Assembly: GCA_027011205.1 (NCBI GenBank)
Contig: JALVAL010000138.1
Coordinates: 1-34,528, forward strand
Direction of reading: 5' to 3'
Length of the DNA: 34,528 nucleotides
Source of the DNA: Gammaproteobacteria bacterium
GTDB lineage: Bacteria; Pseudomonadota; Gammaproteobacteria; GRL18
The position numbers and the translations under genes are program-made. Under the pieces are notes generated by a model that was not told the DNA's origin, searched no databases, and saw only the letters and a program-made list of their open reading frames with translations. Positions 2,936 through 32,236 of this stretch are shown here, piece after piece. The first letter of the stretch is position 1, and every line of letters starts with the position of its first letter.

Positions 2936-3270
2936 TGGCGACAAGAAAACACCTAAGGCATGATGAAAAAACAAGAGCGAAAATTCAAGCAAGTCAGCTA
3001 ATAAATCGCTTAAAGAAACATATACTTGCAAAACCAGAAGAAATAAACGGGAAATGGGTTGTAAAAGACCTGATGACGCAAAGCCAAGTAACGGCGGCTT
3101 TAGGGTTGATAAAAAAAGTATTGCCAGATTTGCAGGCCATTGAAATGAAAGCAGAAGTAACTGAAACGAAGCGCATTATAAGCAGCGAGCCATTAACTAC
3201 AGATGAGTGGGAAAGAAAATACGGAGATAATCTGGAGGCCTCAAGCAGGCCCGCAAAAAGCCTTAATTGA
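2935..3270 (+). CDS. Putative terminase small subunit
   Basis: 111 aa, basic, directly upstream of the large terminase; overlaps it by 68 bp. Confidence 0.55.
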   Translation: MATRKHLRHDEKTRAKIQASQLINRLKKHILAKPEEINGKWVVKDLMTQSQVTAALGLIKKVLPDLQAIEMKAEVTETKRIISSEPLTTDEWERKYGDNLEASSRPAKSLN

Positions 3271-4621
3271 TTGCCCAATACCAGAGATATTTTATGGAGG
3301 GGCAAGAGGAGGCGGGAAAACTGACGGCGTTCTAGGTAAATATGCCATAAAGGCAGAAACCTATGGCGAAGGATTTAACGCTATATTCTTTCGCAAAGAG
3401 TTACCAATGCTTGACGATGCCATAGAACGTAGTCGGTTTATTTTCGGATCAATTGGAGCAGTATGGCAAGACCAGAAAAAGACATGGCGGTTCCCCAGTG
3501 GTGGAAGGTTAAGGTTTAGACCATTAGAGAGGGTTCAAGATGCAGAAAAGTATCAAGGTCAGAATATTAGTGATGCGTGCGTTGAAGAAGCTGGCAACTA
3601 TCCTGACCCAGCGCCTATAGATAGGTTAAACGGTGTTTTAAGAAGTGTTTCAGGTGTCCCTACACAGTTAATAATGACAGGCAACCCCGGCGGGCCGGGG
3701 CAGAACTGGATAAGGTTAAGATATATAGACCCAGCACCACAAGGAATGAAGGTGCTAGAAAGAGCATTACCAAATGGTGAAGTACATAAATATGTATTTA
3801 TACCGTCGAAGCTAAAGAATAATAAGTTATTGGTGCAGCAAGACCCAGGATATGTAAACAGGCTGTATTTGGTAGGTTCAAAAGAGCTAGTGAAGGCATG
3901 GTTAGATGGTGACTGGAATGCAATTGAAGGTGCATATTTTGACTGCTGGTCTAAAGATATGGAGTTAAAGCCGTTTGAGATACCAGAACATTGGATGCGG
4001 TTTCGCTCATTTGATTGGGGAAGCGCAAAGCCATTTTCAGTTGGTTGGTGGGCGGTAGCTTCGGAAGACTATATCCACCCATCAGGCCGCATACCAAAGG
4101 GCGCTATGGTAAGATATCGTGAATGGTATGGGTCAAGTGGTCCTAACGTAGGATTAAAACTGACTGCTGAAAGTGTAGGAGCCGGAATAAAGGCAAAGGA
4201 ACACGGAGATAATATTAGCTATGGAGTTGCAGACCCGGCAATATTTACAAAGGATGGCGGGCCATCAATAGCTGACAGGATGGTTTTATATTGGCGTCAT
4301 GCTGATAACAAGCGCGTCGCGTCAAAAGGCCATGTAGGTGGATGGGATCAAATGAGGCAACGAATGCAAGGTGAAGACGGTAGGCCAATGATTTATTGCT
4401 TTACCACTTGTGTTGATTCAATTAGAACTATCCCAGTATTACAGCATGACGTTAACAAACCAGAAGATTTAGATTCAGACATGGAAGACCACGCAGCAGA
4501 TGAATGGCGTTATGCTTGCATGAGTAGGCCATATATCACAGAGAAGCCAGGCGAGAAAACCACGCCTAATGATTATGGTTTTGAAGACGATGATATTGAA
4601 GACGACTGGAAAACGGCATGA
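3203..4621 (+). CDS. terL: Terminase large subunit
   Basis: Walker A-like GGARGGGKT, DACVEEAG, nuclease-like SFDWGSAKPFSVGWW. Confidence 0.93.
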   Translation: MSGKENTEIIWRPQAGPQKALIDCPIPEIFYGGARGGGKTDGVLGKYAIKAETYGEGFNAIFFRKELPMLDDAIERSRFIFGSIGAVWQDQKKTWRFPSGGRLRFRPLERVQDAEKYQGQNISDACVEEAGNYPDPAPIDRLNGVLRSVSGVPTQLIMTGNPGGPGQNWIRLRYIDPAPQGMKVLERALPNGEVHKYVFIPSKLKNNKLLVQQDPGYVNRLYLVGSKELVKAWLDGDWNAIEGAYFDCWSKDMELKPFEIPEHWMRFRSFDWGSAKPFSVGWWAVASEDYIHPSGRIPKGAMVRYREWYGSSGPNVGLKLTAESVGAGIKAKEHGDNISYGVADPAIFTKDGGPSIADRMVLYWRHADNKRVASKGHVGGWDQMRQRMQGEDGRPMIYCFTTCVDSIRTIPVLQHDVNKPEDLDSDMEDHAADEWRYACMSRPYITEKPGEKTTPNDYGFEDDDIEDDWKTA

Positions 4622-6441
4622 TTGAAATCAACACAGTAAAGAAGAACATAGAGAAGTTTCTGACTGATACCGCTGACGCGCGTACAGCTTCGGAACGATG
4701 CCGTGATTATTACGACAACAAGCAATGGACGGAACAGGAAGCAAAAGTATTACAATCAAGGAAACAAGCCCCTATTGTTGTAAATCGAATTAAACCAAAG
4801 GTTGAGGGGTTAATCGGCCTTTATAATCTACGCAAGAACGATCCAAAAGCATACGCGAGAACGCAGAAACATGAAGAATCCAGCCATGTTATTACAGACG
4901 CCCTTCGATATGTAGCCGACAATACAGACTTTGACAACACTCGACTAGATATTGCGGATAACTTCTTCGTCGAGGGCTATGGAGGCGCGATTGTTGACGT
5001 AAAGCAAAAAGGCGACGATGTGGAAATTAGCGTAGATCATATCCCGTGGGATCGTATCTATTTTGACCCGCATAGCAGAAAAAAGGATTTCTCAGACGCA
5101 AGATATAAAGGAATTATCATGTGGATGTATGAGGACGAAGCGGAAGAAATGTTCCCAGATTCTGATATTGACGCATGTGTTAATCAGTATGCCGGTGCAG
5201 ATGAAACCTTTGAAGATAAACCTATTTGGACAGATTCAAGGAAGGGCCGCATTCGACTAGCTTTGCATTTTGAGGTACACAAATCTGTGTGGAATATGAG
5301 TATCAGCTGTGGTGATGTTTTTATCGTAGAGCCACAAGTATCAACATATCTCGATGATGACGGGCAGCCGACATGCCCGATTGAATTAATTAGCGCGAAT
5401 ATAGACCGAGATAATAACCGCTATGGCGAGGTTTCTGGGTTCCTTGACCAGCAAGACGAAATCAATCATAGGCGCTCTAAATTCCTTCATTACCTTAATT
5501 CTCGACAGACATTTGGCCGGAAGGGTTCACAGCCTGACATTAATAAACTCAAGAGAGAATTATCTAAGCCAGATGGTCATATTGAGTTTGAAGGCGACCA
5601 GTTTGGTAAAGACTTCGGAGTTATGCCGCAGAATCAAGGTGCGGAATCAGGGCAATTTACGTTATACCAAGATGCTAAAGCAGAGCTTGACGCTGTATCT
5701 ATAAATGCCCAGCTATCAGGAGATAGGCAGCAAGGTAACCTCTCTGGTGTTGCTATTGGGAAACTGCAACAAGCTGGAACAATGGAATTAAACCGGCAAT
5801 ATGCCTTGCTAGCTGGGTTTGAGAAAAGAATCTATCGGCAAATTTGGTGGAGAATTAAGCAGTTTTGGACTAAAGCCAAGTGGATACGCATAACAGATGA
5901 TCAGGACAACCTACGGTGGGTTGGGTTTAATACTGAAATCACTATGCAGGAAGCATTAGAAGAAAAGATAAATGACGAATCAGAGCCGTTGCACGTTAGA
6001 CGACAAGCAGCAATGTTCTATACACAAATGATTCAAACAAATGACCCTCAACTTCAATCTATTGTCGAAGTGAGAAACCCGGTTCCTGAACTTGATGTAG
6101 ATATCATCCTCAATCAGTCTTTTGATGTGGTTAATGCACAAGAAGAACAGTTCCAGATGCTTGCTCAATTTGCTAATGGAAGCGATGTTGATTTATTAGA
6201 CCTAATCGAGCTGTCCCAGCTTAAAGGGAAAGATGAACTAATTCAGAAGATCGAAAAGAGAAGAGAAGCCGCAGCTCAAGCAGCAGGCGGTAAAATCCAA
6301 TTAGAGCAGCAACAAATGGCTGCTAAAACAGAAAGCATACAAGCTAATACTGCTAAAACTTTCACAGAGGCGCAGCAAAAGCAGATAGAAAACGAACTAC
6401 TTATAACTGATCCTGCTCAAATAAATAGTATTAGTGTATAA
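4618..6441 (+). CDS. P22-type portal protein
   Basis: 607 aa; RKQAPIVVNRIKPKVEGLIGLYNLRKNDPKAYART...GYGGAIVDV, position after terL. Confidence 0.9.
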   Translation: MIEINTVKKNIEKFLTDTADARTASERCRDYYDNKQWTEQEAKVLQSRKQAPIVVNRIKPKVEGLIGLYNLRKNDPKAYARTQKHEESSHVITDALRYVADNTDFDNTRLDIADNFFVEGYGGAIVDVKQKGDDVEISVDHIPWDRIYFDPHSRKKDFSDARYKGIIMWMYEDEAEEMFPDSDIDACVNQYAGADETFEDKPIWTDSRKGRIRLALHFEVHKSVWNMSISCGDVFIVEPQVSTYLDDDGQPTCPIELISANIDRDNNRYGEVSGFLDQQDEINHRRSKFLHYLNSRQTFGRKGSQPDINKLKRELSKPDGHIEFEGDQFGKDFGVMPQNQGAESGQFTLYQDAKAELDAVSINAQLSGDRQQGNLSGVAIGKLQQAGTMELNRQYALLAGFEKRIYRQIWWRIKQFWTKAKWIRITDDQDNLRWVGFNTEITMQEALEEKINDESEPLHVRRQAAMFYTQMIQTNDPQLQSIVEVRNPVPELDVDIILNQSFDVVNAQEEQFQMLAQFANGSDVDLLDLIELSQLKGKDELIQKIEKRREAAAQAAGGKIQLEQQQMAAKTESIQANTAKTFTEAQQKQIENELLITDPAQINSISV

Positions 6442-6517
6442 TATTTAGTTATACCCGCCGCCGGGGTTTTCGGGCGAAGTGGACGCCGCACAACGGGCGC
6501 TGTTAAAAGGTGAAGAC

Positions 6518-7276
6518 ATGACCGAACAAGCTGAAGAGCTGGAAGAAGTAGCCGAGGATATTATGTCCTTATCTGATACGTTCAACGACGATCTGGAAGA
6601 CGCTGAAGATAAATCAGAAGAAACCAGCGAAGTCGAAACGGGCGAAACGGAAGAAGTAGAAGAAACCGAAGCGAAAGCCGAGGAAGAAACTACCGAAACC
6701 GAAGTGGTGACGCCGACCACGGAACAGTCCGGTCTATATGCGGCACTACAAGCCGAGCGGAAGAAACGACAGGAAGCAGAAGAAAGACTGGCTAAAAAAG
6801 AACCAGAAGTCGTACCTGACCCAATGGATGACCCAGAAGGCTATGCTAAACACATAGAACAAAAGGCAGACAAAGGGTTGCTTGAAACCAGAATCTCCCT
6901 TTCACGGGATTTAATGATGGATAGCAAAGATGACTACCTTGAAAAAGAAAAGGTGTTCATGGGTATGATTATGGATGACGAAGGTAAGGTGATTGACAAA
7001 ACCTTGCATGAGAAATTTTTGGCAAGTTCTAACCCTGCGAAATTTACTTACGACACAGCTAAAGAACATCTCGAAATTCAGGAATTAAAGTCACCAGATT
7101 ACCGTGACAAGTTAAAAGCTGAAATCCGCGCTGAGTTACTTGCTGAAATGAAAGTACCTGAAATTAAATCTGTAAAGCCAACTGAAGTGCCTAACTTAAC
7201 CAAAGCCAGCGAGGCCGGATCAAATACTGAAAAGGCTGAATCGGAAATTACCGAAATGTCCGAATTGTTTGGCTAA
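6518..7276 (+). CDS. Capsid scaffolding protein
   Basis: Very acidic Glu-rich protein between portal and capsid; ATG at 6518 has SD aaaggtga, preferred to GTG at 6479. Confidence 0.75.
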   Translation: MTEQAEELEEVAEDIMSLSDTFNDDLEDAEDKSEETSEVETGETEEVEETEAKAEEETTETEVVTPTTEQSGLYAALQAERKKRQEAEERLAKKEPEVVPDPMDDPEGYAKHIEQKADKGLLETRISLSRDLMMDSKDDYLEKEKVFMGMIMDDEGKVIDKTLHEKFLASSNPAKFTYDTAKEHLEIQELKSPDYRDKLKAEIRAELLAEMKVPEIKSVKPTEVPNLTKASEAGSNTEKAESEITEMSELFG

Positions 7277-7294
7277 TTTTAGGAGTGCTATAAA

Positions 7295-8443
7295 ATGGCA
7301 TCATCAACAATTAGTACCGGGAACCTTACAACCCGGTTTCAAAACAAAGTAAAACGCGAGTATGTCCGTGGCGGTCGTTATGCACCGTACATTGGCAACA
7401 CTCAGGATGCAATCATCCAGGTTAATAATGACCTGAAGAAAGTATCTATCCCACTGATCGGCAAGCTATCCGGCGCAGGTGTAACTGGTTCTACAGCTCT
7501 TGGCGGTAATGAAGAGGCGCTGAATAACTACGATTTCACCATGCAGCCGACGTATAAGCGAAATGGCGTCCTGATCGACAATGAAGAGAATGAAAAGGCT
7601 GAATTCGATTTGTTCTCTGAAGCACGCCCAGCCTTGATGAACTGGGCAATGGAGTTAAAGCGCGACGAAATCACGCAGGCAATGGGCGCTGTTATCGCTG
7701 GAACTACCTATGCGAACTACGGTGGCACTACCGGAGCTTATGGCGCAGCAGCAGCTACAGCGGCGCAGATGGACACATGGAACACCAATAACTCAGATCG
7801 TATTCTTTACGGTGCTGCTGTTGGTAACTATGTTTCTGGTGATCATACTGCCTCTTTAGCTACCATTGACACAACCAATGACAAGTTGGACGCGGATATG
7901 GTCCGCCTACTGAAGCGCCGTGCTGAAGCAGCTGATCCTCTGATCCGTCCGGTGATGGTCAAAGGTGATGAGCCGTGGTATGTGTTCTTTGTCGGTACTT
8001 ATGCCTTCCGTGACCTGCAAGCTGATCTTGACACTAAGCACCAGAACGCAATGCCTCGTTCCGTTGATGGGAACCCATTGTGGACTGGTGGCGATCTGGT
8101 TATGGATGGCGTTATCATTAAGAAAGTGCCAGAGATCGACTCAGTATTCATTGATGGCTCAGGCGGTGCTTTTGGCGGTGTTTGGGGAGCAGGTGCAACT
8201 GGTGACAGTCTGGCAACTGGCGGTAATCTCGGAAGCCGTGTATCAGTCGGTTTCTTCTGCGGTGCGCAGGCAGTTGGTTTCGGCGTAGGCCGTCAAGCAT
8301 CATTTAAGCGCAAGAAAGAAGATGACTATGAGCATCAGTCAGGTGTTGGCATTACTATGAAGTCTGATATCAAAAAGACTTTTTACAACAACAAGCAGCA
8401 TGGCATGGTTACTTCATTCCATAGCTCAACCGGCGACGCTTAA
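7295..8443 (+). CDS. Major capsid protein
   Basis: 382 aa after scaffold; ends with ...VGFGVGRQASFKRKKEDDYEHQSGVGITMKSDIKKTFYNNKQHGMV typical of podovirus capsids; strong SD. Confidence 0.85.
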   Translation: MASSTISTGNLTTRFQNKVKREYVRGGRYAPYIGNTQDAIIQVNNDLKKVSIPLIGKLSGAGVTGSTALGGNEEALNNYDFTMQPTYKRNGVLIDNEENEKAEFDLFSEARPALMNWAMELKRDEITQAMGAVIAGTTYANYGGTTGAYGAAAATAAQMDTWNTNNSDRILYGAAVGNYVSGDHTASLATIDTTNDKLDADMVRLLKRRAEAADPLIRPVMVKGDEPWYVFFVGTYAFRDLQADLDTKHQNAMPRSVDGNPLWTGGDLVMDGVIIKKVPEIDSVFIDGSGGAFGGVWGAGATGDSLATGGNLGSRVSVGFFCGAQAVGFGVGRQASFKRKKEDDYEHQSGVGITMKSDIKKTFYNNKQHGMVTSFHSSTGDA

Positions 8444-14814: not shown

Positions 14815-14815
14815 C

Positions 14816-15793
14816 ATGGCCTGGCTACCAATAGCGCAAACTGTCCCGCAATACACCTCTTCTGGTGAGCCTGCTGCGGGTTATGTTTTAAAATTCTACG
14901 CAGCTGGAACTGCAACTAATATTGTCATTGCAACTGATAACACTGGTGGCACTACCGCAACTGACGCATTATTGAACGCAGATGGCTATCCAGAGGTTAC
15001 AGGATCAGTTTTTATCCCACACATAGACCAATCCTATAAAGTTGTTTTGTATCCATCACAGGCGGCAGCAGACAGCGATACAGGGTCTGTTTGGTCTGTA
15101 GATAACTTAACTCCTCCGGTTAATACGGTTAACTCAGTTGACGAAAAGGTAAAAGTATCAAGTAACGATACAACAGCAGACACGCTTGATAGCAAGGTCG
15201 TATCAGGAACAAACATCAATGTGACTGAAAACCTAGACGGCGCAAATGAGAATCTAAGCGTAGATTTAAAATTGACGGCTGATGTAGTACCGGAAACAAC
15301 GTCGGCAATTGATTTAGGAACAGTGACAAAACAATTTAAAGATGCGCAGTTCAGCGGGACTTTAACTGTAGACACTGCTTTTTCAGGGGCAGCATTCTTA
15401 GACGAAGATGATTTAATATCTGATAGCAATACAAAAGCAGCTAGTCAGCAATCTATAAAAGCATATATTGATTTGAAAACAGGCGGTCTTAACACAAAAA
15501 TAATTGATATTGGCGACTGGGATATGGATGCAACATTATCAGTATCAATACCTCATGGTTTAACATATTCTAAAATAAGGAGCGTCAAGGCGTTAATTCG
15601 TAATGATGCAGACTCGGCTGTATATGATTTTTCTTCAGTAAATAATGCAGTGACAGAAACAGCAGGAAACTTTGTTTATGCGACAGTAACAGACGTTGCA
15701 ATAACTAGGGCGACGACAGGATTTTTCGATTCAACAGGATTCGATAGTACATCTTATAATCGTGGCTGGATTGTAATAAGGCATATTAACTAA
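14816..15793 (+). CDS. Tail fibre/adaptor with tailspike-like head-binding N-terminal domain
   Basis: MAWLPIAQTVPQYTSSGEPAAGYVLKFYAAGT...FIPHIDQSYKVVLYPSQAAAD; fibre motif SNTKAASQQSIKAYID. Confidence 0.85.
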   Translation: MAWLPIAQTVPQYTSSGEPAAGYVLKFYAAGTATNIVIATDNTGGTTATDALLNADGYPEVTGSVFIPHIDQSYKVVLYPSQAAADSDTGSVWSVDNLTPPVNTVNSVDEKVKVSSNDTTADTLDSKVVSGTNINVTENLDGANENLSVDLKLTADVVPETTSAIDLGTVTKQFKDAQFSGTLTVDTAFSGAAFLDEDDLISDSNTKAASQQSIKAYIDLKTGGLNTKIIDIGDWDMDATLSVSIPHGLTYSKIRSVKALIRNDADSAVYDFSSVNNAVTETAGNFVYATVTDVAITRATTGFFDSTGFDSTSYNRGWIVIRHIN

Positions 15794-19573: not shown

Positions 19574-19665
19574 TGGTAGTTGGGGCGAGACTCGAACTCG
19601 CATCAGCCGATTATCTGTCGTTACGGGTTATAAACCCGCTGCTCTACCAGTTAAGCTACCCAACC
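19574..19665 (-). tRNA. tRNA, 89 nt plus encoded CCA, apparent anticodon UAU, long (21 nt) variable region
   Basis: Minus strand GGTTGGG TA GCTTAACTGGTAGAGC A GCGGG TTTATAA CCCGT [AACGACAGATAATCGGCTGAT] GCGAG TTCGAGT CTCGC CCCAACT A CCA; all four arms pair. Confidence 0.85.
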
Positions 19666-19697: not shown

Positions 19698-19746
19698 ATA
19701 TAACAGGTCGATGAACCAGACGGAGCTGGCTATCTAGTTGTTAGAT
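19698..19746 (+). repeat. attC-like site L1
   Basis: Plus: ATATAAC aggtc GATGAACCAG acggag CTGGCTATC tagtt GTTAGAT; last 7 nt match GTTRRRY exactly. Confidence 0.65.
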
Positions 19747-20081: not shown

Positions 20082-20108
20082 TTCATTCTCCTATAATTAT
20101 TAAAGTAA

Positions 20109-20165
20109 ACCTAACAATACGCGCAAGGCGCTATCGCTCGGACTCGCTGCGCTCTAATCATTAAA
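20109..20165 (+). repeat. attC-like site L2
   Basis: Plus: ACCTAAC aatacGCGCAAGGCGC...GCGCTCTAATCATTAAAC; ACCTAAC matches RYYYAAC exactly; near-copy of sites R5 and R8 with a 12-nt internal deletion. Confidence 0.7.
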
Positions 20166-21031: not shown

Positions 21032-21067
21032 ATTTCACCTATAAATTGTCGAGTAGTGATTTCAAAC

Positions 21068-21128
21068 ACATAACAATCAATTTCAACGGAGCGCAAAAAC
21101 CGCGCCCGCTGAATAATGGTCGTTATAA
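21068..21128 (+). repeat. attC-like site L3
   Basis: Plus: ACATAAC aatcaatTTCAACGGAGCGC aaaaacc GCGCCCGCTGAA taatggtc GTTATAA. Confidence 0.7.
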
Positions 21129-21335
21129 TTTCAATAACCACAAATTAGCCATCCTTCGTCCAGCATTAGTTTTCTTCTGCTCGACCGGCTCAGACTCTTT
21201 CCCAACTCGCCATTGATCAATATAGCCTTTAAATATCTTGCTATGATCTGATGGGTTAAAGCGATTAAGCTGGTCATAGATAAATTCTCTATCTTCACGC
21301 TGTGGAAGCTTGTTTATGGCGTCTGTTAGGTTCAT
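21123..21335 (-). CDS. Hypothetical protein
   Basis: 70 aa; ATG overlaps SSB stop; its own stop sits in the attC-like end. Confidence 0.6.
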   Translation of the reverse strand: MNLTDAINKLPQREDREFIYDQLNRFNPSDHSKIFKGYIDQWRVGKESEPVEQKKTNAGRRMANLWLLKL

Positions 21336-21772
21336 TAAAATGGTAGTTTGTCGAATCCTTCATTAGCAGGTGGCGCATCATTCTGGTTTTGAGCTGGCAC
21401 AGGTTCTTGCTGCTGATTTGTTTGACCGTTGTTTGACTGGCTACTACCGAGCATTTGCATTTCATGTGCAACAATCTGAGTTGAATAACGATCCTGTCCG
21501 TCTTGGCCTTGATATTTGTTTGTCTGAATCTTTCCCTCGAAGTAAGCTTGCTGTCCTTTCTTCAAATACTGAGCAGCAATCTCGCCTAACTTTCCGAACA
21601 TAACGACACGATGCCATTCAGTTTTCTCTACCTTTTCTCCAGTATTCTTGTCTTTCCATGATTCACTGGTCGCTATAGAGACTGTGCAAATAGCTGATCC
21701 ACTCGATGAATATTTAACGTCAGGGTCTTGCCCTAATGTTCCGACAATAATGGCCTTATTAACGCCTTTCAT
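21335..21772 (-). CDS. ssb: Single-stranded DNA-binding protein
   Basis: [74 protein letters not shown]-terminus ...FDKLPF. Confidence 0.95.
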
Positions 21773-22893: not shown

Positions 22894-22919
22894 AATTATA
22901 CCTTTACTTTAATTGCAGC

Positions 22920-22987
22920 GGCTAACAAGTCATTTCACAGGACAGCGTTCCGCTGCGCTCCACTTGCCTGTAAATTCGGTCGTTAGC
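22920..22987 (+). repeat. attC-like site L4
   Basis: Plus: GGCTAAC aagtcATTTCACAGGACAGCG ttccgctgcgctccacttg CCTGTAAAT tcggtc GTTAGC; pairing ATTT[C]ACAGG[A]CA with extrahelical C and A. Confidence 0.75.
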
Positions 22988-23219
22988 TAGTAATATCCCC
23001 AAAAGGTCTAAATATCTTATAGTGGCCTTTTTTATTTCTGGTTACTAATTTCTGTTTAACCATTTCTTTGCATACCGGAGAGCCAACTGAGCTGTGACCA
23101 CCATTTATTACCCGTCCAATCTCGGTTGGTGAAATCCAATCTCTACCCTCCCGCTGAGAAACACCATTCATGTATCGAATTGCTATATCTATTTTTTCTT
23201 GCATTTTCATTAAAATCAC
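22983..23219 (-). CDS. Winged-helix-like small protein
   Basis: 78 aa; ISPTEIGRVINGGHSSVGSPVCKEMVKQKLVTRNKKGHYKI. Confidence 0.65.
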   Translation of the reverse strand: MILMKMQEKIDIAIRYMNGVSQREGRDWISPTEIGRVINGGHSSVGSPVCKEMVKQKLVTRNKKGHYKIFRPFGDITS

Positions 23220-23237
23220 CTATCTCGTTTAAATTCT

Positions 23238-23300
23238 AGCTAACAATACGCACCAGCGGAGCGCTAAAACCGCGCTCGCTGTTGTGCTCGGTCGTTATAC
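23238..23300 (+). repeat. attC-like site L5
   Basis: Plus: AGCTAAC aataCGCACCAGCGGAGCGC taaaacc GCGCTCGCTGTTGTGCTCG gtc GTTATAC. Confidence 0.75.
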
Positions 23301-23359
23301 ATTCAAAATACTCTCAACAATCTCCGGCACTTTAGCAACTACTCTATCATCCCGGTTGA

Positions 23360-24124
23360 TCATTTCTTACTTAAAATATCTGCCAGAATATTCTTGTATT
23401 GCCTTTTAGCACCTACTGGAATATCCGAGCCAAACATATTAATCACAGCAATATATTCATCGTTTGACAACCGCTTATACGCCTCATGGTACTTATCATA
23501 ATCTTCTGAATCAGAATCAATAAGACTTCTGAAATAAGCGTTGGCTTTTTGAATCTTTTTAACATCAAGCAACTCACCAGAAGTCTCACCAATAAGAATT
23601 GGTACTCTATTCCACTGAAACCGAACACGTCCGTTATAATCAGTTGCCTTAAGACTATCTAGTAAGCCGTCTTTAAAAGATGATTCCCAGCGCCACAAAT
23701 CAAGACGCAATTCCCATGATTGATGAAACTTGCCATTACGCTCTTGATACTCATTTTTGAACAATTTAACAGAGATTCGCGGGTAATCGTAAAGCTCAAG
23801 ACCGATCCCCCAGTTAAAACAGGCTCTCTTGAATGAATCGGATGCTAGACCTTTCTGAGCTTCAGCCATTGACTCTGTACCTGTATCCTCCTTAGAAACC
23901 CAATGCTTTCTATCTTCGTTCCAGATAGAAACTGTGCAATTGTGGTTATCCCTCGAATGCTCACGCTTCCATCCAAGTTGACCGCAAATATCATTAAGCC
24001 GATTAATGTCAACCCTGGCATCCTTGTACGCAAGGATAGTCGCATACCCGCCGTTATTGATAGACTGAATGCGGAAGTCTATTTGGTCGATTGTAAGCGG
24101 TTTAGTTAGATTCTTGATATCCAT
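23360..24124 (-). CDS. Rad52/22-family single-strand annealing protein
   Basis: MDIKNLTKPLTIDQIDFRIQSINNGGYATILAYKDARVDINRLNDICGQLGWKREH...SDSFKRACFNWGIGLELYDYPRI; ATG at 24124 has SD gagg. Confidence 0.85.
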   Translation of the reverse strand: MDIKNLTKPLTIDQIDFRIQSINNGGYATILAYKDARVDINRLNDICGQLGWKREHSRDNHNCTVSIWNEDRKHWVSKEDTGTESMAEAQKGLASDSFKRACFNWGIGLELYDYPRISVKLFKNEYQERNGKFHQSWELRLDLWRWESSFKDGLLDSLKATDYNGRVRFQWNRVPILIGETSGELLDVKKIQKANAYFRSLIDSDSEDYDKYHEAYKRLSNDEYIAVINMFGSDIPVGAKRQYKNILADILSKK

Positions 24125-24200
24125 CTTCTTCCTCACTATACTCTGGTTCTGGTAACGCTTCGTCTGTTTCCGGTACATTCTCTAAGTACCACTCGCCCAT
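24102..24200 (-). CDS. Very small acidic ORF (32 aa) overlapping the annealase start
   Basis: MGEWYLENVPETDEALPEPEYSEEEDGYQESN; not in ORF track. Confidence 0.4.
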   Translation of the reverse strand: MGEWYLENVPETDEALPEPEYSEEEDGYQESN

Positions 24201-24902: not shown

Positions 24903-24910
24903 TTCTTTTA

Positions 24911-24965
24911 CCCTGTAAATTAAAGAGCTTCACTGCGTTACGCCTTTTTAATTCGGGCGTTAGCT
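24911..24965 (+). repeat. attC-like site L7 (one end degenerate)
   Basis: Plus: ...TAAATTAAAGagcttcactgcgttacgccttTTTAATTcgggcGTTAGCT. Confidence 0.5.
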
Positions 24966-25220
24966 GTCTTTAAACGATTCAATATGCTTGCCGAACTCAT
25001 GGCGTAACGTCTCTAACTGGCTGCGCTTAACCAGCCAATCCCTTACCCGTCCTGGTAGGCTTCTATAGCCTTTGTATGCTAGATTGCCGTCCATATATAA
25101 CCACACCGCTTCCATCTCAACATCATCGCCATCCATATAATATTCAACGGTAATTTGAGCATCGAAAGACTGGCCAAACACTTCAAAATCTTGATAGAAG
25201 TCGTAAGTATGGTAGATCAT
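24960..25220 (-). CDS. Hypothetical cassette protein
   Basis: 86 aa, ATGA overlap with upstream gene. Confidence 0.6.
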   Translation of the reverse strand: MIYHTYDFYQDFEVFGQSFDAQITVEYYMDGDDVEMEAVWLYMDGNLAYKGYRSLPGRVRDWLVKRSQLETLRHEFGKHIESFKDS

Positions 25221-25739: not shown

Positions 25740-26033
25740 ATGCCTTCTCGCACCCCAAAACAAAACCGAGCATACTGGAAGTATCTGCGCTCTTTAGCGG
25801 ATGATCTGAATGATGCCGGTATCGACTTTAAAACGTCTGTACGACTTCCTGTGCGGTTTACTGCTGAGAACATGCACGAGTATATGTTCACGCCAGTTAT
25901 GCAGTCTTTATACCCTGAAAAGAAGTCAACGACTGAGCTATCAACTGTAGAGATGCAGGAAGTCTACGATACGTTTAATGCTGCTGTAGGTCAGCGGTTT
26001 GGAGTTAGCCGTAACTGGCCTAGTAATAGATAA
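25740..26033 (+). CDS. ninB: NinB-like recombination protein
   Basis: 97 aa; PKQNRAYWKYLRSLADDLNDAGIDFKTSVRLPVRFTAENMHEYMFTPVMQSLYPEKKSTTELSTVEMQEVYDTF. Confidence 0.75.
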   Translation: MPSRTPKQNRAYWKYLRSLADDLNDAGIDFKTSVRLPVRFTAENMHEYMFTPVMQSLYPEKKSTTELSTVEMQEVYDTFNAAVGQRFGVSRNWPSNR

Positions 26034-26101
26034 CGATTGAGCGTACTTGAAATTTATGGAGCGAAGCGGAATAAAATTTCCAGTAGCGCGACTTGTTAGC
26101 A
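26029..26101 (-). repeat. attC-like site R1
   Basis: TAACgattgaGCGTACTTGAAATTTAT ggagcgaagcgg AATAAAATTTCCAGTAGCGCgacttGTTAGC; arms align as GCG-TACTTGAAATTT-AT / GCGCTACTGGAAATTTTAT. Confidence 0.75.
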
Positions 26102-26111
26102 AGATTTTAAT

Positions 26112-26359
26112 TTAGACGCTCTGCCGCTGCGGACACCGAAGATGGCAACACCGGCAACAGAGCTGAGCTGAGGGAAACAAGACGCGAAACCCATTGGATG
26201 CACAAGTAGCGATACGCGCCCGAATAGAACCGGGACTCCCGTTAGGCGGGGATAGCGAAAAATGCGGCAGGATGGGCAATTTGACTGTGACAGGTAATGC
26301 TGGCGACGAGCTTGACCGAATCAGAGGCGGTAACTAGGTTTACCGGGCAGAGCGTCTAA
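26112..26359 (+). ncRNA. Structured RNA candidate (~248 nt) closed by a 14-bp perfect stem
   Basis: TTAGACGCTCTGCC (26112-26125) pairs with GGCAGAGCGTCTAA (26346-26359); internal hairpins CCCGaatagaacCGGG and TCCCGttaggCGGGGA; no ORF. Confidence 0.65.
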
Positions 26360-26376
26360 CTTAGGAGAGAGCAAAT

Positions 26377-26517: not shown

Positions 26518-26525
26518 CTGACAGA

Positions 26526-26597
26526 GTTTAACGGGCGCATAGATATTGAGCTACGGAGCACGCTGGTTTAGCGCTCCGTTTTAGAACGCATTATTAT
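26526..26597 (-). repeat. attC-like site R2 (distal end degenerate)
   Basis: GTTTAAC cgggcgcat...ACGGAGCacgctggttta GCGCTCCGTtttagaacgcattatta. Confidence 0.55.
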
Positions 26598-26624
26598 ATT
26601 ACGATATTTTACGAGGAGTACAAA

Positions 26625-26843
26625 ATGAAAGATATTCTTACTGTTGTTTTTGGTGGTGTTGCGATTTCCGTACTAATAATCGCTCTGTTTTTAATTGGGC
26701 CTATTCTAGTTTTATGGGTGATCAACAGCCTTGCAGAGGCTGGCGGATTATCATTTTATATAGAGCACAATATGTGGAATTACTGGGTTGCTTTTATTCT
26801 ACTACTGTTAGTCAGGGGTGGCTCAAGTAGTAGCCGTAAGTAA
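26625..26843 (+). CDS. Small two-TM membrane protein
   Basis: 72 aa; VVFGGVAISVLIIALFLIGPILVLWVI and YWVAFILLLLVRGG. Confidence 0.65.
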   Translation: MKDILTVVFGGVAISVLIIALFLIGPILVLWVINSLAEAGGLSFYIEHNMWNYWVAFILLLLVRGGSSSSRK

Positions 26844-26914
26844 TATAACGCCAGAGCTGTGCTGACGACACGAAGCGCAGCGTAGTGGTGGTCAGAACGA
26901 GCGAATTGTTATAA
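26843..26914 (-). repeat. attC-like site R3
   Basis: ATATAAC gccagagctgtgCTGAC gacacgaagcgcagcgtagtggtg GTCAG aacgagcgaatt GTTATAA. Confidence 0.65.
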
Positions 26915-26932
26915 CTACGTTTGGTAAGAATT

Positions 26933-27391
26933 ATGGGATATGCAGAAAATACAAGTGTAAGCACAGAAAAAAGTAGGGCTGAAATTGAACGAACTTTGCA
27001 GAGATACAATGCCGACCAGTTTATGTATGGCTGGGATGCGGATAAAGCTGTGGTGGGTTTTCGTATGGCCGGAAGACAGATTCGTTTCTTGCTGCCAATT
27101 CCAGACAAAGAAGATTGCCGGTTTACCCATACACCAACTGGCAAGGTACGAAAGCAGAACGCCGCATACAACGAATGGGAGCAAGCCTGCCGCCAAAAAT
27201 GGCGAGCACTGAGTCTTGTTATTAAAGCAAAACTGGAAGCTGTTGAAGCTGGTATTGCAATATTTGAAGATGAATTTATGGCAAACATCGTGCTACCGAA
27301 CGGTGATACAGTAAGCCAATTCATGCTGCCGCAGATCGCCGCAGCGTATGACCAGGGCGAAATGCCGAAGATGCTGCCAGATTTACGGTAG
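26933..27391 (+). CDS. Hypothetical cassette protein (~152 aa)
   Basis: MGYAENTSVSTEKSRAEIERTLQRYNADQFMYGWDADKAVVGFRMAGRQIRFLLPIPDKEDCRFTHTPTGKVRKQNAAYNEWEQACRQKWRALSLVIKAKLEAVEAGI. Confidence 0.75.
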   Translation: MGYAENTSVSTEKSRAEIERTLQRYNADQFMYGWDADKAVVGFRMAGRQIRFLLPIPDKEDCRFTHTPTGKVRKQNAAYNEWEQACRQKWRALSLVIKAKLEAVEAGIAIFEDEFMANIVLPNGDTVSQFMLPQIAAAYDQGEMPKMLPDLR

Positions 27392-27397
27392 TAGTAG

Positions 27398-27457
27398 TTA
27401 TAACGACCCAGCACAGCGAGCGCGGTTTTAGCGCTCTGCTGGTACGTATTGTTATAA
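27398..27457 (-). repeat. attC-like site R4
   Basis: TTATAAC gaccCAGCACAGCGAGCGC ggtttta GCGCTCTGCTGGTACGtatt GTTATAA. Confidence 0.75.
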
Positions 27458-27478
27458 CGATTTTAATTTGGAGAAACT

Positions 27479-27781
27479 ATGAGTTTATTTCAGTGTGAAA
27501 TCTGTGGATGTGTAGAGAATACAGCCACATCATCTCAAGGCTGTACAGGCGGAATGGAACGACTTTTCGACTGGACGGGCTTAGAAGATTTAAAAGGGAA
27601 AAAACTTTGTAGTGTTTGCGCGCCAAGAATTTATCGTGACGGTACGAGCACATGGTTTGGGAGGTGGCATGGAGAGTTTAAGCGAACGTTTTTACCGAAG
27701 GGAAAATTTAAAACAAACAGGCAAGGTAACCTTGAACACATTGAAACAGGTGAAACAGATTACAGAAAATATGCAATCTGA
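27479..27781 (+). CDS. Zinc-ribbon-like cassette protein
   Basis: 100 aa; FQCEICGCVENTATSSQGC...KLCSVCAPRIY. Confidence 0.7.
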   Translation: MSLFQCEICGCVENTATSSQGCTGGMERLFDWTGLEDLKGKKLCSVCAPRIYRDGTSTWFGRWHGEFKRTFLPKGKFKTNRQGNLEHIETGETDYRKYAI

Positions 27782-27788
27782 TTTCGTT

Positions 27789-27856
27789 ATAACGACCAGA
27801 GCGAAGCGGCGAGCGCAGCGAGTCCGAGCGATAGCGACTTGCGCGTATTGTTATGT
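27789..27856 (-). repeat. attC-like site R5
   Basis: ATAACgaccaGAGCGAAGCGGC gagcgcagcgagtccgagcgata GCGACTTGCGCgtattGTTATGT; 65/67 identical to 31301-31367. Confidence 0.78.
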
Positions 27857-27878
27857 GTATATTTTTGGAGATTAGGAA

Positions 27879-28148
27879 ATGACTAATTTTATTGGCTTAG
27901 TTTCTGAGTTAGCTGGACGCAATGACATATCAATGAAACCAGAAAAAGAGATTGATTTTGGAAATCTGAATATAGAAATGCTTGACAAACAAGCTCGCCG
28001 GTTAGCAGATAATGAAGTTTTCGTTTTTATTGATGGAGAAGAGTCAGAAAGTGACGAAATCACAGAAAAGCATGGCCTTGAAGAACTCAATAGAGTATTA
28101 AACAGAATTTTTGATGGTGAACTGTATGAAAAATTTTATTACACATAA
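27879..28148 (+). CDS. Hypothetical cassette protein
   Basis: 89 aa with good SD (ttggagattagg). Confidence 0.6.
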   Translation: MTNFIGLVSELAGRNDISMKPEKEIDFGNLNIEMLDKQARRLADNEVFVFIDGEESESDEITEKHGLEELNRVLNRIFDGELYEKFYYT

Positions 28149-28192
28149 CATCTGGTTATACCGAATCACAAAATAGTGAAATAGACAGAAAC
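28143..28192 (-). repeat. Type-2 repeat (attC-like), copy 3
   Basis: ACATAACATCTggttataccgaatcacaaaatagtgaaaTAGACAGAAAC. Confidence 0.5.
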
Positions 28193-28211
28193 TACCTATC
28201 TAGGATATAAA

Positions 28212-28454
28212 ATGCCAAAATGGAACAAACCAGAAACAGCGCCTAGAAACGGCCATCTGGTCTTTGCCAACTTAGGATGGCCGTGGCCTATTACCGCCTG
28301 CTGGAACGAATACGAGCATAGATGGGTTTATGCTATGGCTCAGTTAAACATAGTGGATAGGCAGGAAGACCCATATTTTGAAAACGAGTATGCGGAAGAT
28401 AGCGAGCTATTGGGCTGGTTGCCGCTTCCAGATGTTAACGAGGTGAAGAAGTGA
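28212..28454 (+). CDS. DUF551-like small protein
   Basis: 80 aa ending ELLGWLPLPDVNEVKK. Confidence 0.55.
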   Translation: MPKWNKPETAPRNGHLVFANLGWPWPITACWNEYEHRWVYAMAQLNIVDRQEDPYFENEYAEDSELLGWLPLPDVNEVKK

Positions 28455-28633
28455 GCATATTAGAACGATTAAATTATTATAATGGTCGTGTTCTTGAGCT
28501 AGATGTTTCTGTCGATAAAAAGACTGTTAATTTAATGGAGCAATGTGACCAATATTTTAGCGTCGATTTAACTAAAGAAGAATTTGGCAAACTGATAAAA
28601 GAACTAAATCAAATTTACGACAGCATGGAATAG
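28451..28633 (+). CDS. Small hypothetical protein
   Basis: 60 aa, 4-bp overlap with upstream ORF. Confidence 0.55.
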   Translation: MSILERLNYYNGRVLELDVSVDKKTVNLMEQCDQYFSVDLTKEEFGKLIKELNQIYDSME

Positions 28634-28634
28634 A

Positions 28635-28790
28635 ATGAAATATATCTGCTATCGCTGCCTACAGGTTATGGATATATCAGAACTTCGACCAGGTGCAAAG
28701 ATGAAAGGGCTTTCTGTAGAGTTAAGCAGAAAGATTAAAATGTGCAAGTCTTGCAAGTGCAGGACGTTTTATAAAATAGGTGATATATGA
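28635..28790 (+). CDS. Small zinc-ribbon-like protein (51 aa)
   Basis: MKYICYRCLQVMDISELRPGAKMKGLSVELSRKIKMCKSCKCRTFYKIGDI; ATGA overlap with next ORF; not in ORF track. Confidence 0.65.
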   Translation: MKYICYRCLQVMDISELRPGAKMKGLSVELSRKIKMCKSCKCRTFYKIGDI

Positions 28791-28978
28791 ATGAAAATGA
28801 ACCGATCAGCATCCGACCAGTGGATAATGGGTTTATTGTTACAAAAATTTACGGTAATAGTAACGGTGAACTAATCTCTGACAAGAGTATTAAAGTTTTC
28901 AGGAGCATGAATGAGTTATGCAGATTTATTCAAGAACACTTTGAACATCGTGGGCTGTGTATTGAGAGTGACACATAA
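28787..28978 (+). CDS. Small hypothetical protein
   Basis: 63 aa ORF, overlaps upstream stop. Confidence 0.55.
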   Translation: MNENEPISIRPVDNGFIVTKIYGNSNGELISDKSIKVFRSMNELCRFIQEHFEHRGLCIESDT

Positions 28979-28985
28979 ACATACC

Positions 28986-29039
28986 GCATAAAAAATAAAC
29001 CCCGACTTGATCGAAAAACCTAGTCGGGGTATTATTCAA
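28986..29039 (-). terminator. Strong hairpin with U-rich tail on the minus strand
   Basis: ccccgact (29000-29007) / agtcgggg (29032-29039); minus reading gives GGGGTTTATTTTTTATG after the stem. Confidence 0.7.
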
Positions 29040-29092
29040 GGGTCGGAGTTAGCAGCTCCTACAAAATCAGGTTTTAACGGAACCGATTCATA
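28990..29092 (-). ncRNA. Candidate small RNA on the minus strand
   Basis: Minus TTGATT-16 nt-TAAGAT (29126 to 29099) placed ~100 nt before the terminator hairpin; GGAG/CTCC hairpin between. Confidence 0.35.
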
Positions 29093-29159
29093 AGTTAAAT
29101 CTTATCAATCCCTCCAGAAAAATCAAGTTTTCTTATAGTTGCTGCTTTAATTTGTTACT

Positions 29160-29420
29160 TTTGTTAACACTTTCCGATTATCTCACTCTACCGCCAGCCG
29201 TCTAGCGAAAGCAAACCGGCAAAACATAGCCCAGGTTATGTGGATAAGAAGGGGCGGTCACATTGTCGCAACAATAGGCAATGGGGATAAACAGGCGTAA
29301 TGGTGATTTGGTGTTAATTGACTGCTGACCAGAACTCAAGCAGCACTGCAAACAAAGCAGATTAAAAAATAATCGGTCGCTTAGTAGCGAGAACGTCCGG
29401 CAAGACGGTGTAAACTGTGT
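29160..29420. other. Candidate replication origin region
   Basis: Noncoding; perfect DnaA box TTATCCACA on minus (29239-29247) and near-match TTATCCCCA (29282-29290); AT-rich hairpin GATTAaaaaaTAATC. Confidence 0.4.
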
Positions 29421-29518
29421 CCTGATAAATAGAGTTAGATAACCAGTTGCATTGAATATGCAGGATTGGGTTTAGATCACCAAACCCTTCAAGTGATTAG
29501 TATTGTCTGGAGAATTGT

Positions 29519-29983
29519 ATGAATAGAAAATTGATGCTTGCTAGAAGGTATTTCACAGCTTATCTGGATTTGAAGCCTAATGTATCCAACGCAGCAATGA
29601 TCCAGCAGCTTATATGTAAAGGGGTTATCCATGAATCAAAAACAAAGCGTAAATCTAGCAAAGTATTGATTGAGATTTACCGCGCATTAAGCAAAACACA
29701 TAAAATAGTGTTAAGCAAAAAGAAAGGATATGTTAAGCCATCTAGTGAATTTTACAGGTCTTCGCAATGGCGGAAATTACGGTACCAAGTTTTAAAGAAA
29801 TTTGATGGGTGCTGTTGTTTATGCGGGAGGTCAAAACGTGAGCATAATATTGTTATTCATGTAGATCATATTAAACCTAGGAGCAAGTATCCTGAGTTAG
29901 AATTAGAAGAAAGCAATCTCCAGCTTTTATGCGAGGATTGTAATTTAGGGAAGTCAAATCGGGATTCTATAGATTGGCGATAA
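29519..29983 (+). CDS. HNH endonuclease
   Basis: GCCCLCGRSKREHNIVIHVDHIKPRSKYPELELEESNLQLLCEDCNLGKSNRD. Confidence 0.88.
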   Translation: MNRKLMLARRYFTAYLDLKPNVSNAAMIQQLICKGVIHESKTKRKSSKVLIEIYRALSKTHKIVLSKKKGYVKPSSEFYRSSQWRKLRYQVLKKFDGCCCLCGRSKREHNIVIHVDHIKPRSKYPELELEESNLQLLCEDCNLGKSNRDSIDWR

Positions 29984-30050
29984 TTGATAATCAGAGAGCG
30001 TTGCACTTCCTGCGGTAGATTAGACAAAAAGATAATTAAAGGTAAGTGGT

Positions 30051-30278
30051 ATGAACAAAATAACAGTTAAAATAAACGGTAAACTAAAAAAGTGTGACAA
30101 CCATTTTTCTGATCACAAAACCAGCTCTCAAGATATGCTTTCTGGTAATAAAATGGCGGATGAAATAGGAGATTTATATATTGATCATAGAATTAACTTG
30201 CCAGAAGTTCAATGGATGCAAGTTATGAAAGCGTTACGGATACATGGTTTTAAAATTACTTTTGTGAGGAACAAATGA
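30051..30278 (+). CDS. Small hypothetical protein
   Basis: 75 aa ORF with SD aaaggtaag. Confidence 0.55.
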   Translation: MNKITVKINGKLKKCDNHFSDHKTSSQDMLSGNKMADEIGDLYIDHRINLPEVQWMQVMKALRIHGFKITFVRNK

Positions 30279-30481
30279 GAAAATTAAAACAAGCAGGAAT
30301 TGCACTGGCCGAAGCTGCTGGCAGATATATTGGCGCTATAGCATACATTGATGATGTTCTTTACGATATCTATAAATACAGCCAAGAAGATTACGACAAA
30401 GCTGATAAAGAAGCAGATATAAGCAAAATAAATTTAATATCTGCAATCGAGAACTTTAACGAGGTATCTAGCAATGGCTGA
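30275..30481 (+). CDS. Small hypothetical protein
   Basis: 68 aa, ATGA overlap. Confidence 0.55.
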   Translation: MRKLKQAGIALAEAAGRYIGAIAYIDDVLYDIYKYSQEDYDKADKEADISKINLISAIENFNEVSSNG

Positions 30482-30725
30482 TATAACAATGTGCAGCTCT
30501 CGGCTATGCCCAAGACGCGAGACTTGCTATCGGGTAAGTGCAAAGCATAGCTTATGGCAGGCATGGTCTGATTTCTTTCGGCCGGAATGTCAGTGCGATA
30601 TGTTTATCAAGGCAAAGGCTGAATGCGAGGAAACAGGCGTACACTGGCCGGTGTTTAATCCGACAGACAATCAAGACTATTGCGAGACGTGTGGGAAGCG
30701 GATGGTCGATATTAATGCTAAATAA
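30474..30725 (+). CDS. Small Cys-rich protein
   Basis: 83 aa; CSSRLCPRRETCYRV, CQCDMF, YCETCGKRM. Confidence 0.65.
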   Translation: MADITMCSSRLCPRRETCYRVSAKHSLWQAWSDFFRPECQCDMFIKAKAECEETGVHWPVFNPTDNQDYCETCGKRMVDINAK

Positions 30726-30793
30726 CGATCAAGTGTCACCGGATTTCATGGAGCGCAGCGGAATGAAAATCCGTGTGTACGCGCTTGTTATGT
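30721..30793 (-). repeat. attC-like site R7
   Basis: ATAACgatcaaGTGTCACCGGATTTCAT ggagcgcagcgg AATGAAAATCCGTGTGTACgcgcttGTTATGT; homologous to site R1. Confidence 0.75.
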
Positions 30794-30880
30794 TGTTTTT
30801 TGAAATTATCTCTTGAGTTATTAGTAACGCAGTGTATTATTACTAATAACAGTGATAAACACGCAAAAGGGGGTAAGGAA

Positions 30881-31147
30881 ATGTTTGAACAAGATTTTGA
30901 CAATATGTTTGCTGACGTTTGGTTTGATGAGCGTGATTGCGCATACGCCTATGAGGAAGGTATAGGTGAGTTTGATGCTGGGGCCAATACCATGCACTCC
31001 AATGATGCGGTTATCGCTGTTCGCAAGTATGACCGCGCCCTCCGTGGTACGCATTATGCAGGCAAGCGTAACCGCCTCCGCGCACAGCGGAATAGTTTGG
31101 TTACTGCCTTTGGGCCGGAAATGGTTGAGCGCGTTGGTTATGACTAA
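30881..31147 (+). CDS. Hypothetical cassette protein
   Basis: MFEQDFDNMFADVWFDERDCAYAYEEGIGEFDAGANTMHSNDAVIAVRKYDRALRGTHYAGKRNRLRAQ; internal ATG of track ORF with SD gggtaaggaa. Confidence 0.65.
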   Translation: MFEQDFDNMFADVWFDERDCAYAYEEGIGEFDAGANTMHSNDAVIAVRKYDRALRGTHYAGKRNRLRAQRNSLVTAFGPEMVERVGYD

Positions 31148-31304
31148 GCGAAAGACGGCAAGCACCAAAGATGGTGCTTGCCGTCAAGCGAAATTTAGAA
31201 AAGAACAAAAGAAACTTGGCAGGCGCGGAAGGCTGTATTACTTGACCGATGAGGAAAAAGAGATGGTGGATTCGTTTTTGTACAAGCTACGCGAATCGCC
31301 ATAA
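31140..31304 (+). CDS. Small basic protein (54 aa) containing a 13-bp inverted repeat
   Basis: MTKRKTASTKDGACRQAKFRKEQKKLGRRGRLYYLTDEEKEMVDSFLYKLRESP; overlaps previous stop. Confidence 0.55.
   Translation: MTKRKTASTKDGACRQAKFRKEQKKLGRRGRLYYLTDEEKEMVDSFLYKLRESP
31154..31185. repeat. Perfect 13-bp inverted repeat, 6-nt loop
   Basis: GACGGCAAGCACC aaagat GGTGCTTGCCGTC. Confidence 0.95.
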
Positions 31305-31368
31305 CGACAAGAGCGAAGCGGCGAGCGCAGCGAGTCCGAGCGGTAGCGACTTGCGCGTATTGTTATGC
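31301..31368 (-). repeat. attC-like site R8
   Basis: ATAACgacaagagcgaagcggcgagcgcagcgagtccgagcggtagcgacttgcgcgtattGTTATGC; near-identical to R5. Confidence 0.78.
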
Positions 31369-31393
31369 GTAATTTTTTACTTTAGAGGTAGAT

Positions 31394-31658: not shown

Positions 31659-31682
31659 ACATAACATCTATTTAGACAGAAA
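31659..31682 (-). repeat. Type-2 repeat, copy 4 (short form)
   Basis: ACATAACATCTatTTAGACAGAAA. Confidence 0.5.
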
Positions 31683-32236
31683 TGCAAAAGCTGAAAACCT
31701 GTAGACTCTGCAAGTCGAAGTTCCGGCAGTTCAGCTCTATGGTTCCTGTGTGTTTGGACTGTGCGCCTGCTTATGCTTTGGAGAAAGCGAAGAAGAAGCG
31801 GAAGGCGAAACAGGTAGAAAAGAAGCGTGCGACTAAGCTCAATGATAGAGCATATCTTGTTAAAAGAGCACAATTCTACTGTAATAAATGGGTAAGATTG
31901 CGTGATGAAGGCAAGTCGTGTGTTTCATGTGGAACAACAGACGCCAAGTTCCATGCAGGACATTACAGGCCAACGTCAAGCAGCCCAGAACATAGGTTCA
32001 ATGAGTACAATCTTGCAGCGCAATGCCCACAATGCAATCTGTTTAAATCTGGGAATTTAACCGAGTATCGAAAGGAACTGATTAACCGGATCGGGCTTCA
32101 GCATGTAGAGCATCTTGAAAGCAAAACACCAACACAGAAGCTGGATTGTGCCGATTTGTTGGAGATAATCGAATATTACAAAGGGAAGATTAAGGCAAAA
32201 GAAAACCCGCTAGACCATAAAGGAAAGGCGGGCTAA
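31682..32236 (+). CDS. ninG: NinG/Rap-like recombination protein
   Basis: CRLCKSKF...CLDCAPAYALEKAKKKRKAK...CVSCGTTDAKFHAGHYRPTSSSPEHRFNEYNLAAQCPQCNLFKSGNLTEYRKELI. Confidence 0.88.
   Translation: MQKLKTCRLCKSKFRQFSSMVPVCLDCAPAYALEKAKKKRKAKQVEKKRATKLNDRAYLVKRAQFYCNKWVRLRDEGKSCVSCGTTDAKFHAGHYRPTSSSPEHRFNEYNLAAQCPQCNLFKSGNLTEYRKELINRIGLQHVEHLESKTPTQKLDCADLLEIIEYYKGKIKAKENPLDHKGKAG
32197..32232 (-). terminator. Minus-strand terminator inside the ninG 3' end
   Basis: Minus CCCGCctttcctttatggtctaGCGGGTTTTCTTTT. Confidence 0.55.

Follow-up and report, generated by a model that had tools for sequence, protein, structure and literature searches.

Introduction

Clusters of attC sites without an integrase (CALINs) have been described in the virulent phages TJE1, P12002L, PH101 and ctTUS972 (Qi et al. 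2023, PMC9892861), and laboratory assays with IntI1 gave recombination for five of the six attC sites taken from TJE1, PH101 and P12002L (PMC9892861). These are the closest described counterparts of the locus considered here, a contig of 34,528 bp (JALVAL010000138.1 of assembly GCA_027011205.1; analysed over its whole length and referred to as the window), which is a small tailed phage with P22-like head genes. Like the known phage CALINs, the window contains small genes separated by attC sites and no intI; it differs in having nine such sites distributed over two divergent arms, and each of them points against its genes. The arrangement of PH101 has been treated as typical of bacterial arrays (PMC9892861). 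As measured here, PH101 and ctTUS972 are inverted like the window, while TJE1 is canonical. Phage-borne attC is already known in itself, but its consistent reversal appears to be unreported, as no report of it was found in the searchable open literature (subscription papers and preprints lay outside the search).

Bacterial systems offer further points of comparison. Sedentary chromosomal integrons and bacterial cassettes share with the window the attC architecture, the position of the crossover and, usually, one small gene per unit, but their genes and attC sites are co-oriented, whereas those of the window are opposed and the contig lacks intI. When the superintegron of Vibrio cholerae was inverted by experiment, the reactive strand came to lie on the lagging-strand template (PMC11023631), as it would in the window if replication and genes run in the same direction; that experiment turned the array round as a whole, whereas in the window it is the individual genes that are reversed with respect to their attC. 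Finally, inverted toxin-antitoxin cassettes of chromosomal integrons, represented by a ccdAB-like pair (C283) and a vapBC-like pair (C107) from the bacterial bin that holds the window, also oppose gene and attC. These are isolated and of the toxin-antitoxin type, whereas the window contains whole arrays of operon genes.

attC sites of the window

The sites were identified with a covariance model (CM R1) trained on 20 attC sites, none of them from the window phage, which came from a Shewanella prophage integron, a class 1 integron, one Pseudoalteromonas site, a contig binned as Thiomicrorhabdus and the integron of the bin (C615). With filters off, the model returned exactly the nine expected sites of the window, with E-values from 3e-6 to 0.03, the next-best place having an E-value of about 1. 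A cruder hairpin scan with a 19-point threshold gave 9 sites against 1.1 expected in shuffled sequences, and a chance origin of the window sites is excluded. The accepted sites are the following:

26026..26103 (-), attC A1, genes on +; CM R1 18.5 bits, E 0.009; extrahelical C in GCG[C]TACT, read by eye
26841..26916 (-), attC A3, inverted to its genes; 29.0 bits, E 1e-5
27396..27459 (-), attC A4, inverted; 23.2 bits, E 4.5e-4
27785..27858 (-), attC A5, first 67-bp copy, inverted; 31.1 bits, E 3e-6
30718..30795 (-), attC A6, inverted; 16.6 bits, E 0.03
31297..31370 (-), attC A7, second 67-bp copy, inverted; 30.6 bits, E 4e-6
21066..21130 (+), attC M2, genes on -, inverted; 23.9 bits, E 3e-4
22918..22990 (+), attC M3, inverted; 27.4 bits, E 3e-5
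23236..23302 (+), attC M4, inverted, follows the Rad52-like gene; 22.4 bits, E 8e-4

R'' and R' boxes with pairable AAC and GTT cores are present in all nine sites, and the L''/L' stem carries an extrahelical L'' base on the canonical strand, spaced as in the reference sites. The geometry (a spacer of 5, with the extra base mostly after 3 pairs) is kept in eight of them, A6 deviating slightly. Rfam gave no match for the window sites.

Three further elements have no CM R1 match:

20106..20165 (+), M1, decayed copy of A5/A7, with a 12-bp loss and the R' core changed from GTT to ATT
26520..26600 (-), A2, doubtful degenerate attC-like hairpin
24905..24966 (+), M5, doubtful half-site, GGGCGTTAGC end only

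The loss in M1, together with its altered core, probably leaves it inactive. A2 and M5 were not accepted as attC, and neither was a weak hairpin (M0) at 19698-19746.

The repeat families reported in the first-pass annotation of this DNA proved real. Its near-identical pair, 27789-27855 and 31301-31367, differs at 2 of 67 positions, and a repeat finder extends it to 83 nt at 92%; both copies (A5 and A7) are among the nine model matches, so that the attC nature proposed for the sites now has independent backing. The genes flanking the pair are unrelated, as had been stated, and similarity ends at the attC boxes. The segment 20109-20165 corresponds to the sequence of the pair minus 12 internal bp, and the decayed R' box of M1 has to be added to this difference. 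Families that cross the arms also hold, with M4 (23236-23302) and A4 (27396-27459) at 83% and A1 (26026-26103) and A6 (30718-30795) at 70%. What had been overlooked is the polarity of the sites, every attC opposing its genes.

Orientation of attC sites and genes

Sites and genes occupy opposite strands in all nine cases, with the six sites of the + arm on the - strand and the three of the - arm on the + strand, and the flanking genes oppose their attC in 18 out of 18 cases across both divergent arms. The co-orientation of gene and attC that marks a canonical gene cassette is found nowhere in the window. Within a chromosomal control of 29 loci, one per gammaproteobacterial genome and searched with the same model, 7 flanking genes were opposite to their attC and 46 had the same orientation.

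Viral loci were gathered by two attC-core motif scans of viral contigs, with genes called by a small codon-usage gene caller that was checked on the window. When loci judged to be bacterial were left out, 28 non-redundant phage loci with 90 sites gave 155 flanking genes opposite and 20 same; having been collected by their attC motif and annotated with automatic gene calls, they are not a random sample of phages. Two contigs, L117 and L102, and phage TJE1 had first been placed with the controls after their polarity was seen, and a recount puts all of them on the viral side. With these exceptions and a further locus, L159, included, the viral set comprises 163 flanking genes opposite and 50 same, 26 of the 32 loci being inverted, and it differs from the chromosomal set at Fisher p values of 1.5e-17 (flanking genes) and 1e-7 (loci). 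The PH101 and ctTUS972 arrays, whose sites CM R1 recovers along with those of TJE1, are inverted according to the depositor annotation. Most loci checked encode phage hallmark proteins (terminase, head, tail sheath, baseplate, tail, polymerase or recombinase). On this reading of sequence, the reversal of attC against genes is general among phages.

When annotated phages were searched by BLAST with attC alone, the only matches were to class 1 integrons in P1-like records. Matches to the attC pattern in two jumbo-phage loci (L023 and L024) turned out to be one common stretch within a coding frame of 1609 aa and were dropped as chance.

Stop codons at the crossover

IntI cuts its site at G^TT. 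When attC is reversed, the antisense G^TTA corresponds to TAA^C in the direction of the genes; an incoming unit would thus join right behind the upstream stop codon, with both genes intact. The stop of the upstream gene falls exactly on the TAA^C crossover at about 34 of 75 phage sites (about 45%). Within the window this applies to A1, A6, A7, M2 and M3: the TAA at 26031-26033 abuts TAA^C in A1, and the boxes of A6, A7 and M3 contain the TAA stops of the genes 30474-30725, 31144-31304 and 22983-23210(-), respectively.

In L089, L090, L091 and L094, phage proteins whose reading frame continues across an inverted attC carry tails such as NVELSG, NVELRG or NAELRG. Inverted attC sites may thus be misannotated, as read-through genes gain a recognisable tail such as ...NVELRG, and tails of this type could serve to mine protein databases for inverted cassettes.

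Cassette genes and their movement between phages

The genes between the sites of the + arm include:

26933..27391 (+), cassette gene of family phrog_17260, bracketed by A3 and A4
27479..27781 (+), cassette gene of family phrog_11861
27879..28148 (+), cassette gene after A5
30881..31304 (+), two small genes between A6 and A7

The clearest case of exchange comes from two other phages, L095 and L115, which have in common a 345-bp unit that is 91% identical, begins at a CTAAC box and consists of one attC and one gene. It stops at the TAA of the gene, and the sequence beyond is unrelated in the two phages. For the window itself, the phrog_11861 gene has a homologue with 61% identity in L159 (IMGVR 3300007102_000037) which is bracketed by inverted attC sites, has its TAA stop in the attC box and lies among neighbours that differ from those of the window; four other viral homologues have no attC. 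The phrog_17260 gene has no adjoining attC in the other 28 phage loci, L036 having one about 2 kb away, and for the gene at 27879-28148 no homologue was found in the viral contigs searched.

These results bear on the site-mediated movement that had been suggested from the A5/A7 pair and the other shared sites with different cargo. Movement of cassette units is seen between other phages and, by context, for one gene family of the window; the 65/67 identity alone is no proof of it, since like attC sites with different cargo are normal in any cassette array. A donor integron lineage, which it had been hoped to trace through the site families, was not identified: megablast of phage records gave no match, and the nearest attC family seen lies on the Thiomicrorhabdus-binned contig, in normal polarity.

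Other attC-bounded segments were also noted. A 76% identical segment of L107 (9347-10062) and L122 (911-131) ends at attC and has a circularly shifted order, as would be expected if a cassette circle had reopened elsewhere or been duplicated. Another, 72% identical, links L097 (10034-10483), a viral contig, with the bacterial-type integron array of L117 (2765-3213), and each of the two loci carries an integron integrase. In the window, the sequence that follows A1 (26105-26365, +) is non-coding, is closed by a 14-bp stem (TTAGACGCTCTGCC/GGCAGAGCGTCTAA) and has a fold z-score of -2.2, with no match in Rfam; it is possibly a structured RNA carried as a cassette.

The phage contig and its bin

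The window is one of 639 contigs in a bacterial bin and occurs, with the same sequence, as an equally long viral contig (IMGVR 3300028030_000037). Its terminal 121 bp, compared between start and end, differ by one base, so that the genome looks complete. Its main recognisable genes are:

3203..8443 (+), structural module of terminase, portal, scaffold and coat; PHROGs matches, scaffold by position only
21335..21772 (-), single-strand binding protein (SSB); PF00436, E 3e-37
23360..24178 (-), Rad52/Erf-like annealase; PF04098, E 2e-9, phrog_1097
31682..32236 (+), NinG-like nuclease at the right end of the + arm; PF05766, E 4e-41

The PHROGs search of the window proteins also matched head-closure genes among the structural genes, and further products are a primase-like protein and a candidate M15-type endolysin. 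Two divergent early operons start at about 25.6 kb, and the GC skew switches there and at 17.9 kb. A search for integron integrases gave zero matches within the phage contig. It carries no complete integron, intI being absent from it (attI was not searched for), and is a CALIN in both arms, with at least two nearby attC sites and no intI in each.

The bin itself contains an integron (C615, locus L013) with an integrase at 14242-15258 (TIGR02249, 419 bits) and a single attC at 16127-16223, in normal polarity after an O-methyltransferase-like gene. Further attC sites of the bin lie on C433, C107 and C283, those of C107 and C283 lying beside the toxin-antitoxin pairs mentioned above, whose orientation is reversed.

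Additional features of the window were recorded. A second repeat of gene junctions, TAACATC...GAATC...TTAGACAGAAAC, runs in gene direction at 28146-28192 (+), 31660-31682 (+, short), 20797-20751 (-) and 22586-22540 (-); two copies begin with the TAA that terminates a gene, and the element has no match to the attC model and is absent from all other loci examined. A tRNA-Ile (19574-19665, -; anticodon TAT) with an unusually long variable-region insertion (about 18 nt) adjoins the - arm. About 360 nt at 29150-29515 (+), immediately 5' of an HNH endonuclease gene (29519-29983), are non-coding and moderately structured (z -1.6).

Proposed mechanism and alternatives

It is considered probable, though well short of established, that a host IntI moves reversed-polarity gene cassettes within the two divergent early operons of the window phage. 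What can be read from the sequence comprises the sites, their polarity, the coincidence with stop codons, the same polarity elsewhere, one unit exchanged by two other phages and the occurrence of a window gene family as a cassette elsewhere; from these we infer IntI as the agent, and movement within the window phage. The mobile unit would consist of an attC opposing its gene, a ribosome site and a gene ending in TAA. The phage, having no integrase, would depend on that of its host to recombine the attC bottom strand in its folded form, and the operons could grow without damage as each insertion would fall behind a stop codon. Replication in the direction of the genes, if it occurs, would put the reactive strand on the lagging-strand template, and in Vibrio cholerae a shift of the reactive strand to that template strongly raised excision (PMC11023631, PMC5371416). 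The GC skew of the window is compatible with forks running with the genes, but it is confounded by transcription.

Several observations count against this mechanism. DNA folding energies are similar for both strands, so that the expected strand is not favoured; the attC family of C615 differs from that of the window, and binning is no proof of a host. The stop-codon match is partly expected, as the box offers TAA in one of three frames, and since some called phage genes enter attC in other frames, the TAAC box partly forces it. Canonical orientation is found in TJE1 (L082), L102 and L117, the last with its own intI. Neither the helicase nor the attC core of the window was found in a further viral contig, the phage is represented by a single isolate, and the viral contigs yielded no relatives of it that might reveal gain or loss of cassettes within its lineage.

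The strongest competing explanation, which is nevertheless unlikely, regards the attC sites as inert relics or short blocks of homology at which the Rad52-like annealase of the phage shuffles early genes, with no integrase involved. The phage does encode a Rad52/Erf-like protein, an SSB and NinG, A5/A7/M1 and A4/M4 are sufficiently similar across the arms, and M1 has decayed. The unit common to L095 and L115, however, ends at a TAA where one partner has no attC, which leaves no homology for annealing; moreover, sites whose remaining sequence agrees at only about 60-70% still retain the R and L boxes and the extra base, and annealing does not predict a single polarity in unrelated phages. Considerably less plausible is the maintenance of the hairpins for a role in RNA, as a weak terminator, an mRNA stabiliser or a processing site, with the polarity reflecting the RNA fold. 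Although the sites separate co-oriented genes and share one orientation, and although attC has been discussed as a weak terminator (PMC9892861), it is the IntI-binding boxes and the extrahelical base that are conserved while the stem sequences differ, and a terminator would leave the common units bounded by TAA^C unexplained.

Arrival of the array as a block from a bacterial integron is very improbable, even though host integron blocks are known from Vibrio phages (PMC9892861): bacterial arrays are canonical, whereas that of the window is fully inverted in two divergent arms, several of its genes belong to phage families, and its cassette DNA has no match in other contigs of the bin, except for one of 65% in the ssb region. 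A dispersed non-integron repeat such as a host repetitive extragenic palindromic (REP) element, the case that the first-pass annotation had named as fatal to its own proposal, is short, palindromic and present in several copies on both strands as the sites are, but is hardly credible here, since the repeat has 3 matches in the bin, all on this contig, and 0 in 56 relatives, and an independent attC model recognises the sites.

Implications

Beyond the window, recombination of reversed cassettes by host IntI leads to a wider proposal, held tentatively and judged somewhat more likely to fail than to stand: phages may keep a cassette pool of their own, with a polarity opposite to the bacterial one, which would provide a seamless plug behind stop codons, leave cross-captured cassettes silent either way, place the reactive strand on the lagging-strand template and let host IntI drive the modular evolution of early regions. 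Once in a bacterial integron, a phage unit would run antisense to the promoter Pc, and a bacterial cassette in a phage would be antisense as well. It has long been asked how phages reshuffle their early genes with such precision at gene ends. Should the host integrase indeed move attC cassettes of reversed polarity, this would give a site-specific answer for many phages and a testable reason why these arrays stay functional, and the cassette pool would be partitioned between phages and bacteria.

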